Shown piece by piece: positions 3,919-37,673 of a stretch of 64,000 nt of DNA. Position 1 is the first letter of the stretch. Each line of letters opens with the position of its first letter. The notes under the pieces are model-generated. The model was not told the origin of the DNA. It saw only the letters and a list, made by a program, of their open reading frames with translations, and did no database searches. The translations under genes and the position numbers were made by a program. This stretch comes from Planctomycetota bacterium (GTDB lineage Bacteria > Planctomycetota > E44-bin39), in contig SOJX01000037.1 of NCBI GenBank assembly GCA_004376375.1, forward strand, positions 1-64,000, in the 5' to 3' direction.

Positions 3919-3943
3919 GGGATAAGGGATACGGGATACGGAA
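3917..3943. repeat. Heptamer tandem array (GGATAAG/GGATACG)
   Basis: About three degenerate copies of a 7-nt word begin at the stop codon of the preceding gene. It is a short, single-armed member of the spacer-array class described in the findings. Confidence 0.6.
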
Positions 3944-15532: not shown

Positions 15533-15660
15533 TGGATAAGGAAATAAGTTGATAAGGTAATAAATAAAAACATTCTCTTATATTCTTATTTCCTTGTTCC
15601 CTTATCCCTTATCCCTTATCCCGTATTCCTTCTTCCTTCATACTTCACACTTCATACTTT
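15533..15660. repeat. Heptamer inverted array (GATAAGG / CCTTATC)
   Basis: The left arm at 15535-15571 has GATAAGG-like or AATAAGT-like words. The right arm at 15577-15660 has CTTATCC, then CTTCCTT and ACTTCAT words. The right arm ends exactly at the stop codon of the ABC ATPase gene. Confidence 0.78.
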
Positions 15661-20578: not shown

Positions 20579-21949
20579 TTATTCTTCCCCTCTTCCTTTC
20601 TTCTCTTCTTCCCCTCTTCCCTTATCCCGTATCCCGTATCCCTTATCCCTTATTCCCTTCCGCGAGGCGAGCGCGTTTTCGAGCTGGAGCGTTGATGCGA
20701 AGCGTAAATCGCCGCCGCGCAGAACTCCGCTTCCGATACGCGTTATCCTTACGTCATAATTCTTCAAAGCGTCCTGCACCATGAGCGCGGTTCCGTCTCC
20801 GGCAAAGGTCGGGTCGGTCGCGATAATGACTTCGTCAATACCGCCCTCTTTCAGCCTGCGCTCGAGACCCTTCGTGTCGATATCGCCGGCCCCGACTCCC
20901 TCGAGCGGCGAAAAGAGCCCGCCCAGCACGTGGTAGCGGCCTTTGAAAACGCCCGTGCTTTCGATGCGGAGCGAGTCCTGGGGCGTCGCCACCACGCAAA
21001 GAAGCGAGGCGTCGCGCGTCCCGTCGGAGCAGATCTCGCACGGGTCGGTATCGCCCACGCCCCCGCAGCGGCTGCACTTCCCGAGTTTCGTTTTCACCGC
21101 GCGGAGCGCCGATGCAAGCTCGGCCGCCCGGGCTTTGTCATCGCCGTCGTCCACCGACGACGCGGCGAGATGAAACGCGATACGGCCCGCCGCATTTGCG
21201 CCGATGCCGGGCAGTCGCTTCAGCGCCTCCGCCGCCGCGTCGATGACTGCGGGGATTCCCGGCCTGACGCTCCGCCGTATTGCCGCGCCCGGACTTCCTT
21301 TTTGAGCGGGCGCCTCAACGGGTTTTTCCTCAACGCGCGTCCGGATCGACTCGGCGACGGCCTTCGACGTTGCAGCCCCGAACGAGCCGCCCTGGACAAC
21401 GCCCTGGCCGATGCGGGTGACGGCGACGTCCGTTGCCGAGAGCCGGTCCGCTATCTCGGCTGCAGCGGCGTCCCCGGCCGGCCTGGTGTTCAGGGCAAGC
21501 ACGACCTCGCGGAAAGAGCCTTTTTCAATGCGTTCGACCAGCCGGTCGATGCCCGGGATTTCGGCCTTCTTTTTTTTCGGTACCGGGCCGAGCACGTGGT
21601 ACAGGCCCCTGTAGCTGTGAGTTTTCTCAAAGAGCGCGAGAACGTCTATCGTTTCGACAACGAGCAGCAGTGAGCGGTCGCGGGCGTCGTCCCGGCAGAC
21701 GGCGCACCTTTCGGCCGGTCCGATATTGCCGCATACGCTGCAGGACTCCAGTCCTTTCGAAATCGCCTCGAGCGCGGCTGCGACGGCAAATGCCTCGGCC
21801 CTGTCCGCGCCGAGAATGTGGAACGTAAGCCGCTCGGCCGCGCGCGGACCTATCGACGGCAGGCCTGTAAATGCCGCGTGCAAGGCCTCGAGGCTTTGAG
21901 GCAAAGACGGCTCATTTCTGCCATTTGCGCGCGAGCGTTTCGAACCCAC
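20579..21949 (-). CDS. recR: Double-length RecR: tandem RecR-RecR fusion
   Basis: RecR acts with RecO/RecF to load RecA at gaps and is normally about 200 residues. Here 456 residues hold two complete RecR modules. Module 1 (about residues 18-215) has the helix-hairpin-helix 'LPSIGPRAAERL', a zinc finger (CSVC...CAVC) and a Toprim domain ending 'IGQGVVQGGSF'. Module 2 (about residues 225-430) repeats this with 'LPGIGANAAGRI', CSRC...CEIC, 'YHVLGGLFSPLEGVG' and 'IGSGVLRGGDL'. Acidic Toprim positions vary: VVET in module 1, VVAT in module 2, and AGD where EGE is usual. The last about 27 residues are coded by a tandem repeat array. The start is the GTG at 21949. Confidence 0.9.
   Translation of the reverse strand: MGSKRSRANGRNEPSLPQSLEALHAAFTGLPSIGPRAAERLTFHILGADRAEAFAVAAALEAISKGLESCSVCGNIGPAERCAVCRDDARDRSLLLVVETIDVLALFEKTHSYRGLYHVLGPVPKKKKAEIPGIDRLVERIEKGSFREVVLALNTRPAGDAAAAEIADRLSATDVAVTRIGQGVVQGGSFGAATSKAVAESIRTRVEEKPVEAPAQKGSPGAAIRRSVRPGIPAVIDAAAEALKRLPGIGANAAGRIAFHLAASSVDDGDDKARAAELASALRAVKTKLGKCSRCGGVGDTDPCEICSDGTRDASLLCVVATPQDSLRIESTGVFKGRYHVLGGLFSPLEGVGAGDIDTKGLERRLKEGGIDEVIIATDPTFAGDGTALMVQDALKNYDVRITRIGSGVLRGGDLRFASTLQLENALASRKGIRDKGYGIRDKGRGEEEKKGRGEE
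20582..20662. repeat. Heptamer array inside the recR coding end
   Basis: CTTCCCC/TTCTTCC and CCTTATC/CCGTATC words run continuously from the recR stop codon into the gene. They encode the repetitive tail with GIRDKGYGIRDKG and Glu/Lys/Arg/Gly residues. The same CCTTATC words occur in the non-coding array at 15600-15630. Confidence 0.75.
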
Positions 21950-21962
21950 GGCCGTGTCCCGG

Positions 21963-22301
21963 TTAGCCGAAGAGGCCCGGCAGGTTGAGCCCGCCGGTAA
22001 TCTTCGACATCTCGTCCTTGTAGAGCTTATCAGCCTTTTTCAGGCCGTCGTTTACGGCGCCGCGTATCATGTCTTCGAGCAGCTCGAGGTCTTCCGGGTC
22101 TACGGCGTCCGAATCGATCTTGATGGCGACAACCCGTCTTGCGCCGCTGACGGTCGCGACGACGGCGCCGCCGCCCGCGGTTCCCTGGACAAGCCGTTCT
22201 TCCAGCTCGGCCTGGATCTTCTGCATCTCGCCCATGGCTTTCTGGGCGTGTTTCACCATGTCGCCCATGTTGCCGCCCATACCGCCGGGAAACTGTGCCA
22301 T
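21963..22301 (-). CDS. ybaB: YbaB/EbfC nucleoid-associated protein
   Basis: A 112-residue protein with the Gly/Met-rich N-terminus and the 'MVKHAQKAMGEMQKIQAELEERLVQG' helix of the YbaB/EbfC family. The conserved 'DPEDLELLEDMIRGAVNDGLKKADKLYKDEM' segment follows. The family forms dimers that bind DNA without strict sequence need. It sits between dnaX and recR with gaps of 20 and 13 bp, the conserved bacterial order. Confidence 0.94.
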   Translation of the reverse strand: MAQFPGGMGGNMGDMVKHAQKAMGEMQKIQAELEERLVQGTAGGGAVVATVSGARRVVAIKIDSDAVDPEDLELLEDMIRGAVNDGLKKADKLYKDEMSKITGGLNLPGLFG

Positions 22302-22321: not shown

Positions 22322-23704
22322 TTATCCGCGTTTATCCCGCCTTACGACGGTGGCGTCAAACGCGTCAAGCAGTTTCCGTACTTCCTCGTCTTCTTCTTTA
22401 TCAACACTTTTCGTGCCGCTTAGCGCCCTGCCCGTATCTTTCGGGCGCTCGACTTCGGCCGGCCCCGCCACCGGCGGCGGGGCTTTAGCGAAAGGGAGGT
22501 TGGAAGTTCCCCCGGAAGGCTGCTCCGGCGGTTTCTGGGCGGGCCCCATGGCGGCCAGCCGTTTCAGACTTTTTTCAATATCGCCCATCCGCCTGAGAAT
22601 TTCCTCGCTCGGAACAAGGTCCTCGATTCGGCATAGTTTTACCAGCACCATTTCGATAAGGACCCTGCGCCTGCTCTCCCAGCGGACTTTCTGTCTCGTC
22701 TCGACGAGCATTTCCGTCATAAGCATTACGGTCTCGGGCGAGAAGTGCTCTGAAACGGCGGCGACGCTTTCCCTGTCGCTCCAGGGCGCGATAAAGAGGT
22801 CCGATTTTCCGGTTACGCGGTAAACCAGAATATCGCGCAGCGTGTCGATGACCTGGTCGAGCAGGGTTTCGGGCGCCGCGCCTCCCGCGAAGATTTCGTC
22901 GAGAATATCGAGCGAGCCGGCCGGATCGTTCGCGGCGACGCATCCGAGCAGCCTGAAGATTTCGCCTGCGGCGACGGCCCCCAGGATTTCGGTCACGTCT
23001 TTAAGCGTTATGACGCCGTCGCTCCCCGCCGCAAGCTGGTCGAGGAGGGAAATGGCGTCGCGCAGTCCGCCGGCGGTGCTTCGGGCGATAAGCTTGAGGA
23101 CGCCTTTTTCAACTTTTATTTTTTCTTTTTCTGCAATGTATTCGAGGCGTTTCCCGGTTGCGTCCGCGCCGACGGGTTTGAAGTCGAAGCGCTGGACGCG
23201 TGAATGGATGGTTTCGAGCAGTTTTTCCGGCTCCGTGGTCGCGAGTATGAACTTGACGTGCGCAGGCGGTTCTTCGAGAGTTTTGAGGAGCGCGTTGAAA
23301 GCCTCGCGGGTGAGCATGTGTACTTCGTCGATGATGTAGATCTTGAGTTTTCCGCGCGTCGCGGTATAGCGGACGCCGTCGCGCAGGTTGCGCGCGTCGT
23401 CGACGCCGCGGTTGGATGCGCCGTCGATTTCGACGACGTCGACGTCGCTGCCGGTCGCGACGGATGTGCAGACCTCGCACTTGCAGCAGGGTTCCGCGTC
23501 CTTCGCGTCGGGGCAGTTGAGCGCCTTTGCGAAGATGCGGGCCATCGACGTCTTGCCGGTTCCCCTCGGCCCTGAAAAGAGGTATGCGTGCGCGACGCGG
23601 TCGCGCTGGATGGCGGTTTTGAGTGCGTTTGCGGTCCGCTCCTGGCCGACCATGTCGGCGAAGGTTTCAGGGCGGTATTTGCGTGCAAGGACGAGATAAG
23701 TCAT
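22322..23704 (-). CDS. dnaX: DNA polymerase III subunit gamma/tau
   Basis: A 460-residue clamp-loader ATPase. It shows Walker A 'SGPRGTGKTS' (residues 44-53), a zinc-binding group (NCPDAKDAEPCCKCEVC), Walker B/DEAH-like 'IIDEVHML', the sensor region 'FILATTEPEKL', and domain III around 'LLDQLAAGSDGVI'. The C-terminal tail is short, about 90 residues beyond domain III, so the tau-specific polymerase-binding part looks reduced. It heads the dnaX-ybaB-recR operon, with the SRP RNA gene directly upstream on the same strand. Confidence 0.96.
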   Translation of the reverse strand: MTYLVLARKYRPETFADMVGQERTANALKTAIQRDRVAHAYLFSGPRGTGKTSMARIFAKALNCPDAKDAEPCCKCEVCTSVATGSDVDVVEIDGASNRGVDDARNLRDGVRYTATRGKLKIYIIDEVHMLTREAFNALLKTLEEPPAHVKFILATTEPEKLLETIHSRVQRFDFKPVGADATGKRLEYIAEKEKIKVEKGVLKLIARSTAGGLRDAISLLDQLAAGSDGVITLKDVTEILGAVAAGEIFRLLGCVAANDPAGSLDILDEIFAGGAAPETLLDQVIDTLRDILVYRVTGKSDLFIAPWSDRESVAAVSEHFSPETVMLMTEMLVETRQKVRWESRRRVLIEMVLVKLCRIEDLVPSEEILRRMGDIEKSLKRLAAMGPAQKPPEQPSGGTSNLPFAKAPPPVAGPAEVERPKDTGRALSGTKSVDKEEDEEVRKLLDAFDATVVRRDKRG

Positions 23705-32813: not shown

Positions 32814-33137
32814 TAATAAAATTTCCCCTTCAATCTGTCCCGTACCGATACATTTCGGCAGAATATTTTACCATTGGAACTGTCGAATATAAAGGATACT
32901 TTTTAAAGAAAATTCCGACTGCAAGGCTCCCCTTTCTAAATACGACGGCTGTAATAGTCATGTGTTTCATATTTCGCATTATTTTCGCCGTATCCCGTTA
33001 TTCTCGCCTGACTTGTCGATGGAGCGAATATTTATAAAAAGGTTTGCATAATGGTAAATAAATCGCTAAAATCGTGTTCAGTAAAGTCCTGAAGCATTCC
33101 CGCCATAATGTCGCAGTATCCTCGCTCCGGAGGTAAA
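32814..33137. other. Divergent promoter region
   Basis: An AT-rich 324-bp gap between the minus-strand minor pilins and the plus-strand surface protein. I looked for -24/-12 boxes facing the pilins and did not find a good one. The gap ends in the strong ribosome binding site ccggaggtaaa before 33138. Confidence 0.45.
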
Positions 33138-36100
33138 ATGAAACGACGCCTGCGGTATGTTCTCGTTTTCGTTATTCCGGTTCTTCTCATCCTGGCCGCC
33201 GTAATCATACTCAGCTTCGAAAGCCTGGACAAATCCGGCAAAACGGACGACTCGCCGGATAAATCGGCTCGAAAATCCGGGCCCGGCGCCGGCAGGACGA
33301 TTGAGTTTGAACCTGATGACGCTACAAAACCGGTCCCGAAGCAGGCCGGAAAAATCAGGCGCATCGGCAATGAAAAAACGCTTGCACGCCTGTTCTCCGG
33401 GAATGGGATTGTCTGCGGCCGCGTGCTGGGCGCTGATACAAAGAAACCTGTCGCCGGGGCGAAGGTCCTGTTCCATTGGAGATATGACACCTGGGACCCG
33501 GACTACGCCGCGCTCGAAACCGGCACGGGGCCTGACGGTAAATTCAGCGTAAGCGGTTTTACGGTTCCTCAGGGCCTTTACGTCGTTATTGAGGCGGAAG
33601 GTTTTGCCGTATATGGAAACTATGGGTGGCTCAGAGAAAATAAGACCTCCTTTGATCTGGGCGACATTCTCCTCGAAAAAGGTGAGCCGGTCGTTTTGAA
33701 AATCAAGGATGCTGCCACCGGTAAAGGTGTTCCCAACGCCTACGCCGACTTTTCAAAAATGAAAGAGGATAAGGCAGTCACGTCGTTCAGGTTGTTTTGC
33801 GAAAAAGACGGCTCCCGGAAGTTCCGTCTTGAAGGAGGGGAATACCGGTTATACATTGAGGCCTTTTCATACTGCCCGGCAAGGAAGGCCGGCGTCAAAA
33901 TACCGGTGGAGGGCGGTCAGATAGAAATCGAGCTGAAGCGGGGTGGAAGGATAGCCGGCAAGGTAATAGACAAGGGCGACAACCCGGTTTTCGGGGCCAG
34001 GGTCAGCGGGGGGAGTTACGGTCAGGTTGGCAGGCATGGAATATCAACGCGGACCCTGGAAGACGGCTCGTTTGAGCTTGTCGGCTGCATACCGGATCAG
34101 ACTTATGACGTTTCCGCCAGTCTCGAAGGATATTTCCGGGGGAGCGGGGGAAACATCAAACCGGGCAAAGATGACCTCGTTATCATACTGGAGCGTTCGT
34201 TTTTTCTGAACGGCTCGGTGACGGATGCGGAAACCGGCAAGCCGATTGGAGGCGCCACTGTTCAGAACGTCATGCCCGACCCGTACGGGGCAAGGGGCGG
34301 GTTCGGCCATTATTATGCTTCCACGAACGCAAAAGGGGCTTATAAACTGGAAATTCCGATAGACAAGAAAAAGCTCAAACTCAACGTATCGCATGAGGGT
34401 TACTTAGACATATCGGGCCGGGAGGTGGTGATTCCCGAGGACGCCGGGGAATTTCATACCGTGAATTTCAAGCTGGAGCGCGGCATCACGCTCACGGGCA
34501 CGGTCACGGCGGCGGACACCGGCAAACCACTCAAGCATGCAAGCGTCACTCTGATAGTTGCGAACAATCACCGGGGCTATAATACCAAATCGGACGGGAC
34601 CTATACGATAGGCGGCCTGGAAACGGGCGAGGTAAAAGTGGTAATTGCGCATGACCAGTACCTGGCATATCTCGAGGAAGACCTTGAAATCACCGAAGAG
34701 GGGGCGGTGCTGGACGTTGCCCTGGAAAGGGGCGGCCAGCTCACGGGCACGGTGGCGGACGAAAACGGGAAACCCCTGAAGCACATTTCGATCAATGCCA
34801 ATGTTCAGGATTTCAACAGAATGTACCGGCGCTATTATCACAACGTCAACCGGGCCGCCAACACACTTGAAAACGGAAGCTATGCGATGTCGGGACTGGA
34901 GCCGGGCAAGGAATACACGGTTACGGCTCATTCAGAGACGCACTTTTCCGATCCGAAGAAGATCGAAATCGAGGAAGGGGTGTCCGCCGTTTGTGATTTC
35001 ACCCTGACCGAAGGCGGCACGATAAGCGGACGGGTGCTTTCGGATGATGGTGAACCGGTCGAGAAGCATGTATCGGTTTCGGCAACGCTCATATCGCCCG
35101 GCGATGAACCGACTGATACGTATCCGGAAAGCGGCCCGGTCGGAGCCCGGCCCGGATACGGCGGGACGCCGGGGACGAGCGGGGTTACCGGCAAGGAAGC
35201 CAAGTTCAAAATCCGCGGGCTCAGGGGCGGAGACTATAACCTTACCGCACACTGCGAGGGTTATAAAACGGGAACGCACGGACCCGTTACGGTCAGGCCG
35301 GGCAAGACGGTCGAAGGAATCGAGATAACGCTTGAAAAAGGTCTGTGCGTAACCGGTACCGTGACCGACGCGTCCGGCAAACCGGTAAAGGACGTGAATA
35401 TCTCCGGATACCAGCCGATGACCGGACGCTCGGCCCACACGAGCGCGGTGACCGACGCCGAGGGCCGTTATACTCTCTCGGGCTTCGATGAAGGAGCGGT
35501 TCATCTGAACGTTAACAAGGAAGGCTACTGGTGCGAAGATTCCAATTTCAGGCAGGTCCAGGCCGGGGCCGAGAACGTGGACTATGTACTGAAAAAGTGC
35601 GGAGCGGTCAAGGGTAAGCTGGTCGGTCTGGAAAAATTTGAAAGCTTCCAGATAACTGCAAAACTGGAGGGAGCCGATATAAGCGTCGAGCCTCCAACCG
35701 ACCCCTCCGACGAGGAAGCAATGATGCGCTATCGCCGTGCCATGATGAGAAGGTCGGGCAACACCGAGGGCTTCCACGACGAGGAAGGGAAGTTCGAAAT
35801 CCATCTTCCGCCCGGAACATATACGCTCACCGCCGGCGGCCGGGGCTTTGCCAGCGGCAAGGTGACGAACATAAACGTGGAGGAGGGCAAGACCGTTGAA
35901 GGTGTTGAGATAAAGGTCGGGCTCGGCTGCCGCGTTATCGTTACCGTGCTTACTAAAAAGGACCGCAAGCCGGTTTCCGCGGCAATGGTAAATCTCCAGC
36001 CGACCGTGCATGACCCGGCGGAATATGAAGAATACGGGCCGGGCGCATGGTCCAACAATTACGGCCATACGGATGAGGACGGGAAAGCGACCATAACCGG

Positions 36101-37673
36101 TATCAAGGCCGGGACCTGCAGTCTCAGCGTAAACCATGAAAAATACGCCGAAACACGGCCCCGCAGCGTGGTCGTAAGCGAAGGCGAAGCCACCGAAGTC
36201 GAAGTTCTGCTTTCGCTCGGCGCGAGTATCACGGGAACTGTAATAGACGCGGACGGCGAGCCGGTAAAGAACGCGCGCCTCACCGCGTATCCTTCAAATC
36301 CGGAAGAGGGGATGATGGGGGGATTCGGCTCTATGAAAGAGGCGCAGACGGACAAGTCCGGCGAATACACCATCACCGGCCTCGCGGCCGGCACTCACGT
36401 CGTGAGCGTCCGTATCGGCCAAGAGGCCGGTTTCGGCCCCTTCGGCGGCGTGAATACAAAGAGCGTCGAAGTCCCCGAGGAGGGATCGGTCACCTGCGAT
36501 TTCAACCTTAAATCGCTGGTCAAGGTGTACGGCATGATAACGCGGGCGGGCAAGCCGGTTAAGGAATGCCACTTGATCTTCTTCCCGGGCAACCTCGGCG
36601 AAAGCGAAGAAAACGAAGAAGAGACGCCCGGAATGTTCATGCCCAGCGCGCAGGCCTCGACGAAGCCCGACGGAACATACGTCGCAATGCTCGCGCCCGG
36701 AACATATAGTATTACCTTTTACTCCATGATGAGCGGCGGGCAGAGCTCGATCAAGATAACCGTTCCCGACGGGAAGGAATATAATTTCGACTATGAAATC
36801 CCCGCTACCAGCGTTTCGGGTGTCGTACTTATGCCCGACGGCTCTCCGGCCACCGGGACTTTCGTGCTGCTGAAAAAACCGGACTCGGATATCGACCCCG
36901 ACAGCACCAACCCAATGGAGATAATGTCGTCCATGGGCGGGCAGGCGGCCGTCGGGCCTGACGGGAAGTTTACGATCGCCAGCGCCAAACCCGGGACATG
37001 GAATCTCGTCGCCATCAAGGACGGCTATTCCCCGGCCGTTATAGAGAACGTCCAGATCACCGATGGTGTGGATTTAAGCAACCTTGAACTGAAACTCTCG
37101 GCCGGCGGCAATATCTGCGGAACGATTACGGACGAAGACGGGCTGCCGGTAAGCCGCGTGAGCGTCATTGCAATGCCCGCCGAGGAGGGGAGCGTGCCGA
37201 CCGTTATGTTCGGCATGGCAGGACACGCCGAGACCGACGAGAGCGGCAAATTCACGCTGGGCGGACTCGTGGACGGTCAGTACCTGATATATGCGGTTAA
37301 ATCCGGAAAAGGGCAGGTGGTCAGAAAAGTCTCGTCCGGTTCCTCCGGCGATGTTGTATGCGATATTACCCTGCCGTCCTCCTGTGAAGTTCGAATCGAA
37401 GTGACTTCCGGCGGCGCTGCGCTCGCAGGCGCGAAGGCGGCCGTCCGCACCTCGGACGGCAATAAACTCCTGATAGGCGGCATCTTCATTACAATGCCCG
37501 GCGGAACCGGCTCGAACGTTTCCGATTCGACCGGAACCATACGCCTCAAAGGCCTTGCGCCGGGACGCTATATCGCCACCGTGTCGAAGGGCGGCTACAA
37601 CGATGCCGAGGTGGATATCACCGTCGAGTCCCAAGCGACAAATACGGCCGAGGTGGAACTCTCGCAGAAGTAA
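33138..37673 (+). CDS. Giant membrane-anchored protein of carboxypeptidase-regulatory-like repeats
   Basis: 1,511 residues from the ATG at 33138, which follows a near-perfect GGAGGT site. An in-frame ATG 30 bp upstream lacks a site. A membrane anchor (about residues 8-27) and a basic, disordered stretch precede more than a dozen beta-sandwich repeats of 80-100 residues. Each has the pattern 'V.G.V.D..GKPV..A.V......G.Y.I.GL..G...V....GY', as in the carboxypeptidase regulatory-like (transthyretin-like) domain. Such chains act as stalks or adhesins. The anchor suggests attachment to the inner membrane. It forms a monocistronic unit ending at a strong terminator. Confidence 0.88.
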   Translation: MKRRLRYVLVFVIPVLLILAAVIILSFESLDKSGKTDDSPDKSARKSGPGAGRTIEFEPDDATKPVPKQAGKIRRIGNEKTLARLFSGNGIVCGRVLGADTKKPVAGAKVLFHWRYDTWDPDYAALETGTGPDGKFSVSGFTVPQGLYVVIEAEGFAVYGNYGWLRENKTSFDLGDILLEKGEPVVLKIKDAATGKGVPNAYADFSKMKEDKAVTSFRLFCEKDGSRKFRLEGGEYRLYIEAFSYCPARKAGVKIPVEGGQIEIELKRGGRIAGKVIDKGDNPVFGARVSGGSYGQVGRHGISTRTLEDGSFELVGCIPDQTYDVSASLEGYFRGSGGNIKPGKDDLVIILERSFFLNGSVTDAETGKPIGGATVQNVMPDPYGARGGFGHYYASTNAKGAYKLEIPIDKKKLKLNVSHEGYLDISGREVVIPEDAGEFHTVNFKLERGITLTGTVTAADTGKPLKHASVTLIVANNHRGYNTKSDGTYTIGGLETGEVKVVIAHDQYLAYLEEDLEITEEGAVLDVALERGGQLTGTVADENGKPLKHISINANVQDFNRMYRRYYHNVNRAANTLENGSYAMSGLEPGKEYTVTAHSETHFSDPKKIEIEEGVSAVCDFTLTEGGTISGRVLSDDGEPVEKHVSVSATLISPGDEPTDTYPESGPVGARPGYGGTPGTSGVTGKEAKFKIRGLRGGDYNLTAHCEGYKTGTHGPVTVRPGKTVEGIEITLEKGLCVTGTVTDASGKPVKDVNISGYQPMTGRSAHTSAVTDAEGRYTLSGFDEGAVHLNVNKEGYWCEDSNFRQVQAGAENVDYVLKKCGAVKGKLVGLEKFESFQITAKLEGADISVEPPTDPSDEEAMMRYRRAMMRRSGNTEGFHDEEGKFEIHLPPGTYTLTAGGRGFASGKVTNINVEEGKTVEGVEIKVGLGCRVIVTVLTKKDRKPVSAAMVNLQPTVHDPAEYEEYGPGAWSNNYGHTDEDGKATITGIKAGTCSLSVNHEKYAETRPRSVVVSEGEATEVEVLLSLGASITGTVIDADGEPVKNARLTAYPSNPEEGMMGGFGSMKEAQTDKSGEYTITGLAAGTHVVSVRIGQEAGFGPFGGVNTKSVEVPEEGSVTCDFNLKSLVKVYGMITRAGKPVKECHLIFFPGNLGESEENEEETPGMFMPSAQASTKPDGTYVAMLAPGTYSITFYSMMSGGQSSIKITVPDGKEYNFDYEIPATSVSGVVLMPDGSPATGTFVLLKKPDSDIDPDSTNPMEIMSSMGGQAAVGPDGKFTIASAKPGTWNLVAIKDGYSPAVIENVQITDGVDLSNLELKLSAGGNICGTITDEDGLPVSRVSVIAMPAEEGSVPTVMFGMAGHAETDESGKFTLGGLVDGQYLIYAVKSGKGQVVRKVSSGSSGDVVCDITLPSSCEVRIEVTSGGAALAGAKAAVRTSDGNKLLIGGIFITMPGGTGSNVSDSTGTIRLKGLAPGRYIATVSKGGYNDAEVDITVESQATNTAEVELSQK

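Follow-up and report, generated by a model that had tools for sequence, protein, structure and literature searches.

RecR is known as a short chain that assembles into rings, in which units pair via their helix-hairpin-helix (HhH) domains and the ring is closed via the Toprim and C-terminal domains. In T. tengcongensis, one N-N dimer of RecR binds one RecO, with loop 106-121 of RecR forming a wedge into RecO, and K21 of RecR is required for RecO binding (PMC3510498). A complex from Thermus and E. coli RecOR together with the SSB tail point to a single RecO on each ring (PMC12192639, PMC7913777), and E. coli RecR dimers form no stable complex with RecO (PMC7913777). RecO contacts of E. coli RecR lie in residues 17-23 (region I), 112-116 with 121 (region II) and 149-150 (region III) (PMC12192639). 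Disputed are the number of RecO sites used in the RecR ring and the working unit of RecR, for which PMC3510498 argues the dimer and PMC7913777 the tetramer.

Here we describe a recR gene that encodes two RecR modules in one chain. It lies in a 64,000-nucleotide stretch of Planctomycetota DNA, hereafter the window (contig SOJX01000037.1). The double RecR resembles the RecRs of T. tengcongensis (3VDP), D. radiodurans (1VDD) and T. thermophilus (8A93) in domain order, Cys4 zinc finger, Toprim domain, dnaX-ybaB-recR gene order and the presence of RecO in the genome. It differs from them in having two units per chain, with halves that appear specialised, in reading AGD at the EGE motif, and in changes to the A-R and E of the β6-α7 region in both halves. 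With Campylobacter jejuni RecR (8K3F; PMC10454854) it shares the absence of RecF and, in module 1, a shortened β4-α5 loop. However, C. jejuni has a single-unit RecR whose loop lacks nine residues, whereas here module 1 has a lysine-rich loop lacking four residues and module 2 an intact one.

One recR gene with two RecR modules

The minus-strand frame from 21949 to 20579 encodes 456 amino acids with zero internal stops, starting at GTG (codon 1) or alternatively at TTG (codon 16), directly before PQSL (Table 1). A plus-strand reading of 20579-21949 was rejected, as the frame is broken. Across the full-length chain, Pfam gives two matches each to RecR_HhH, RecR_ZnF and Toprim_4, in the order HhH, Cys4 zinc finger, Toprim in each half. 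The NCBIfam recR equivalog model (TIGR00615) matches in two stretches, at 329.4 bits against a cut-off of 162.55. Searched alone, module 1 scores above the cut-off for RecR_HhH (41.9 bits) and Toprim_4 (36.1); RecR_ZnF, at 18.9, falls just under the cut-off of 22, yet C70, C73, C82 and C85 are all there. Both zinc fingers have the spacing C-x2-C-x8-C-x2-C, and 8/8 cysteines are kept. The full domain order that the first-pass annotation had described in both halves is thus borne out, with the module 1 zinc finger just short by its own model, and neither half proves to be anything but RecR. That two RecR modules are present is near certain. By every sequence test save chain architecture the protein is a member of the RecR family; its 456 residues make two units, not the single unit of ~200 residues.

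Table 1. Coordinates of the double recR gene, its parts and its neighbours in the window
Feature	Position	Strand	Remarks
Double recR gene	20579..21949	minus	456 codons, GTG start to TAA; both halves match RecR families
Module 1 (residues 16-205)	21335..21904	minus	HhH, Cys4 zinc finger, Toprim, C-terminal helix; R36, R40, E99 and 4 Cys kept; β4-α5 loop eroded
Module 1 site of the RecO-docking β4-α5 loop (residues 121-134, GPVPKKKKAEIPGI)	21548..21589	minus	Lysine-rich, four residues short of phylum consensus
Linker (residues 206-229, 24 residues)	21263..21334	minus	Mostly very low model confidence; no in-frame ATG/GTG/TTG
Module 2 (residues 230-431)	20657..21262	minus	HhH, Cys4 zinc finger, Toprim, C-terminal helix; loop GGLFSPLEGVGAGDI kept; N252 at K21 position, A321 at Toprim Glu
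Module 2 β4-α5 RecO-docking loop, intact (residues 343-357)	20879..20923	minus	Compared with loop 106-121 of PMC3510498
C-terminal tail of double RecR	20579..20656	minus	Dispersed GGGATAA repeat, GC3 0.41
ybaB (YbaB/EbfC), upstream neighbour	21963..22301	minus	
dnaX (DNA polymerase III gamma/tau)	22322..23704	minus	
Sigma-54, downstream of recR	20496-19060	minus	

GC3 is coding-like in module 1 (0.75) and module 2 (0.77) and 0.41 in the tail, and the last ~25 codons probably lie outside the RecR fold. Repeats of GGGATAAGGGATA are dispersed in the window at 3919-3938, 15603-15622 and 20623-20656 (8 matches versus 0.06 expected), one site having been absorbed into the 3' end of the recR reading frame. 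Translated tails related to this one also occur on other contigs of the genome (C127, C84).

AlphaFold, run on a single chain, folds both halves (mean pLDDT 78.5, pTM 0.63), module 1 almost without an alignment. The alignment used placed all single RecRs on module 2; an alternative alignment straddled the halves. Most of the linker, at residues 207-227, has pLDDT <50. The best PDB matches found by Foldseek are RecR chains (3ve5, 3vdp, 5zvq; probability 1.00), with one RecR-sized stretch aligned per match.

The minus-strand gene order is dnaX, ybaB, recR, sigma-54, and dnaX-ybaB-recR is the usual location of recR. A whole-genome search (5.68 Mb, 94% complete, 157 contigs) found no second recR, which answers for this assembly a point raised in the first-pass annotation. 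The best reading is that the double RecR is the genome's housekeeping recombination mediator RecR. Elsewhere in the window, 33108-37673 on the plus strand encodes a protein of 1521 residues that contains about twelve carboxypeptidase-regulatory-like repeats.

Origin of the two modules

Aligned to each other, the halves are identical at 73/204 positions (36%; E 9e-36), and they share no exact 12-mer. At the 73 identical residues the codons agree in 37 cases, compared to 32.4 expected at saturation. Low identity, lack of a common 12-mer and synonymous saturation together rule out that one half is a recent copy of the other or an echo of the assembly, in agreement with the view taken at first reading.

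Five rare residues, each found in ≤4% of single RecRs, are common to the halves (A22/A238, A37/A253, G77/G299, A158/A383 and G181/G406). Pairs of diverged singles taken at random have 0.56 such residues in common on average, and five are reached in 2/402 pairs. A tree built with 56 single RecRs groups the halves together with support 58/90, but the placement is weak, since long branches meet there, that of module 1 (5.0) being the longest in the tree. For this reason, the case for duplication rests more on the shared rare residues than on the tree. The best reading of these sequence comparisons is that an old tandem duplication, in frame and within this lineage, gave rise to the gene.

Residue differences between the modules

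We compared both halves at positions known from T. tengcongensis (K21, R25 and loop 106-121; PMC3510498) and in the three regions of E. coli RecR that contact RecO. The E. coli row of the alignment served only as a ruler for residue numbering. In region I, module 1 reads LPSIGPR where module 2 reads LPGIGAN. Module 1 has R36 and module 2 has N252 at the K21 equivalent, which is R or K in 54/56 singles; both modules retain the R25 equivalent (R40, R256). Region II, the β4-α5 loop, is present in 56/56 singles. Module 2 has it as GGLFSPLEGVGAGDI, and in module 1 it is reduced by four residues to GPVPKKKKAEI. The EG of region III is AG in both halves. At the Toprim glutamate, conserved as E in 55/56 singles, module 1 has E99 and module 2 has A321. 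Acidic motifs had been noted as differing between the halves; this stands for the glutamate of VVE ('VVAT' in module 2) and falls for EGE, which is AGD in both.

Among 43 columns near-invariant in 55 phylum singles, module 1 keeps 32 and module 2 keeps 37. The losses (11/43 and 6/43) compare with a median of 1 and a maximum of 8 in the singles. Complementary losses are not in excess over chance: three columns are lost in both halves, where about 1.5 are expected from 11 and 6 of 43. Nor are the losses cleanly complementary, since three β6-α7 residues (the near-invariant A, R and E) and the EGE glutamate are gone from both. In C. jejuni RecR, the β6-α7 region lies at the pore and is part of the domain that touches the neighbouring unit (PMC10454854).

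At the residue level, these comparisons support specialisation of the halves. The earlier idea that fusion left them free to specialise fits, as the Lys21 position and the Toprim Glu are kept in module 1 and the docking loop in module 2. We infer that known DNA-facing and partner-docking features are now divided between the units, in what may be a division of labour.

RecO, RecF and the docking loop

RecO is present in the genome, at C123:9087-9806 (TIGR00613, 88.6 bits against a cut-off of 48.7), and RecF gave no match above cut-off there. In the phylum, RecF was found in 0/147 genomes, and the control search was positive in 9/14 control genomes. With RecO found and RecF not, this is a RecOR system.

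In C. jejuni, the short RecR loop has been attributed to loss of RecF (PMC10454854). Single RecRs of the phylum (loci L008-L066), however, keep the β4-α5 loop, though 147/147 genomes tested are without RecF. Loss of RecF alone therefore fails to explain loss of the loop, and these data argue against the published view that it releases the loop. Most simply, the loop is kept in the phylum for RecO. In the phylum sample, it is lost in module 1 alone.

Distribution of double RecRs

The collection searched contains no other genome of this family, order or class. No double RecR was found in ~675 other sampled genomes of the phylum, in which all RecRs are single-unit. Apparent doubles, i.e. phylum genomes with two matches, proved to hold either one ~200-codon RecR matched in pieces or an additional short fragment on a different contig, and were rejected. 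There was no double among the phage (15/24) or plasmid (30/61) matches listed, each of which spans about 560-720 bp, or one unit, and IMG/VR gave no matches. A contig search with the single protein returned only one ordinary RecR, from a Bacteroidota bin. The survey of two-domain proteins called for at first reading has thus been run over a sample of the phylum and the phage and plasmid matches listed, with other phyla barely covered. Because sampling centred on the organism's own phylum and took in hardly any named species outside it, we claim uniqueness for this sample only. The literature searched reports no double RecR, in line with the first-pass annotation.

Several near-complete phylum genomes (some single-contig, 95-98% complete) gave no RecR match, at least nine of them in one family (f103) and some in another (f24); RecR has possibly been lost or has strongly diverged in these. 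In one genome (G571), an extra RecR-like piece (contig C40:6416-6670; 49% identity over query residues 230-320) lies off the contig with the full recR and is perhaps a second copy or contamination.

Discussion

We consider it fairly probable that the double RecR acts in a RecOR mediator with a ring of two chains, heterotypic pairing and asymmetric RecO docks, an arrangement that we infer. At gaps covered by SSB, the four-unit ring normally formed around DNA would be closed by two chains, acting with RecO in the absence of RecF. Each of them would contribute one full RecO-docking loop, from module 2, and one HhH with the conserved basic pair, from module 1, so that the chain itself would set two RecR units to one RecO. 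If the fused pair represents one N-N pair, each chain would be a ready RecO-binding unit; alternatively, the chain may join units across the C-C side, and the 24-residue linker would fit either arrangement. The former dock of module 1 may have become a basic surface for DNA, and the double RecR would presumably load RecA. Against this reading, the Lys21 on which RecO binding depends in T. tengcongensis is missing from module 2, dimers of E. coli RecR form no stable RecO complex (PMC7913777), the losses are not cleanly complementary, and the protein is known from one genome, with no second assembly as confirmation. Partial decay of module 1 is also possible, given its loss of 11/43 near-invariant columns where singles lose at most 8.

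A bolder proposal, which we put forward tentatively and hold to be rather doubtful, is that this would be the first asymmetric RecR ring. Its four units, from two chains, would alternate, a composite RecO site would combine the module 1 HhH with the module 2 Toprim loop to give exactly two docks per ring, and the lysine-rich surface of module 1 would replace RecF in holding duplex or junction DNA.

Instead, module 2 might carry out the whole RecR function in a normal homotypic ring, leaving module 1 as a decaying passenger. The long branch of module 1 and its many lost columns point that way, as does its scoring below module 2 against every full-length single RecR. Yet module 1 retains its frame, coding GC3, all its zinc-finger cysteines, the two basic residues of the HhH and the Toprim Glu. 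Moreover, the Lys21 position and the Glu, which it keeps, are exactly those lost by module 2, and synonymous saturation implies a long time for a passenger to remain intact. We regard this explanation as unlikely.

Less likely again is that no adaptation is involved, the covalent linkage acting as an ordinary symmetric RecR dimer while both halves drift. The near-chance overlap of double losses (three against about 1.5) and the change of EGE to AGD in both halves are what drift would give. However, Lys21 and loop 106-121, the two features backed by mutants or structures (PMC3510498), have opposite fates, each module keeping the one that the other has lost.

It is very improbable that two adjacent single genes were merged by sequence error. 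The gene does come from a single genome in 157 contigs without a second assembly, but both modules are complete and the linker joins them in frame, and module 2 would have no start, as codons 196-244 contain no in-frame ATG, GTG or TTG; assembly slippage is countered by the divergence of the halves. Least probable of all is that the linker is cleaved, releasing two distinct RecR proteins for a hetero-ring: most of the linker, at residues 207-227, has the low pLDDT typical of disordered stretches, but we know of no precedent for a chain cut into two RecR proteins.

What is new here, as read from the sequence, is the asymmetry of two RecR modules in one chain. The single RecRs of the phylum, which retain the loop despite the absence of RecF, provide a control. 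A natural fusion with the docking loop in one unit per pair would allow the dispute over RecO sites to be tested without engineered linkers.
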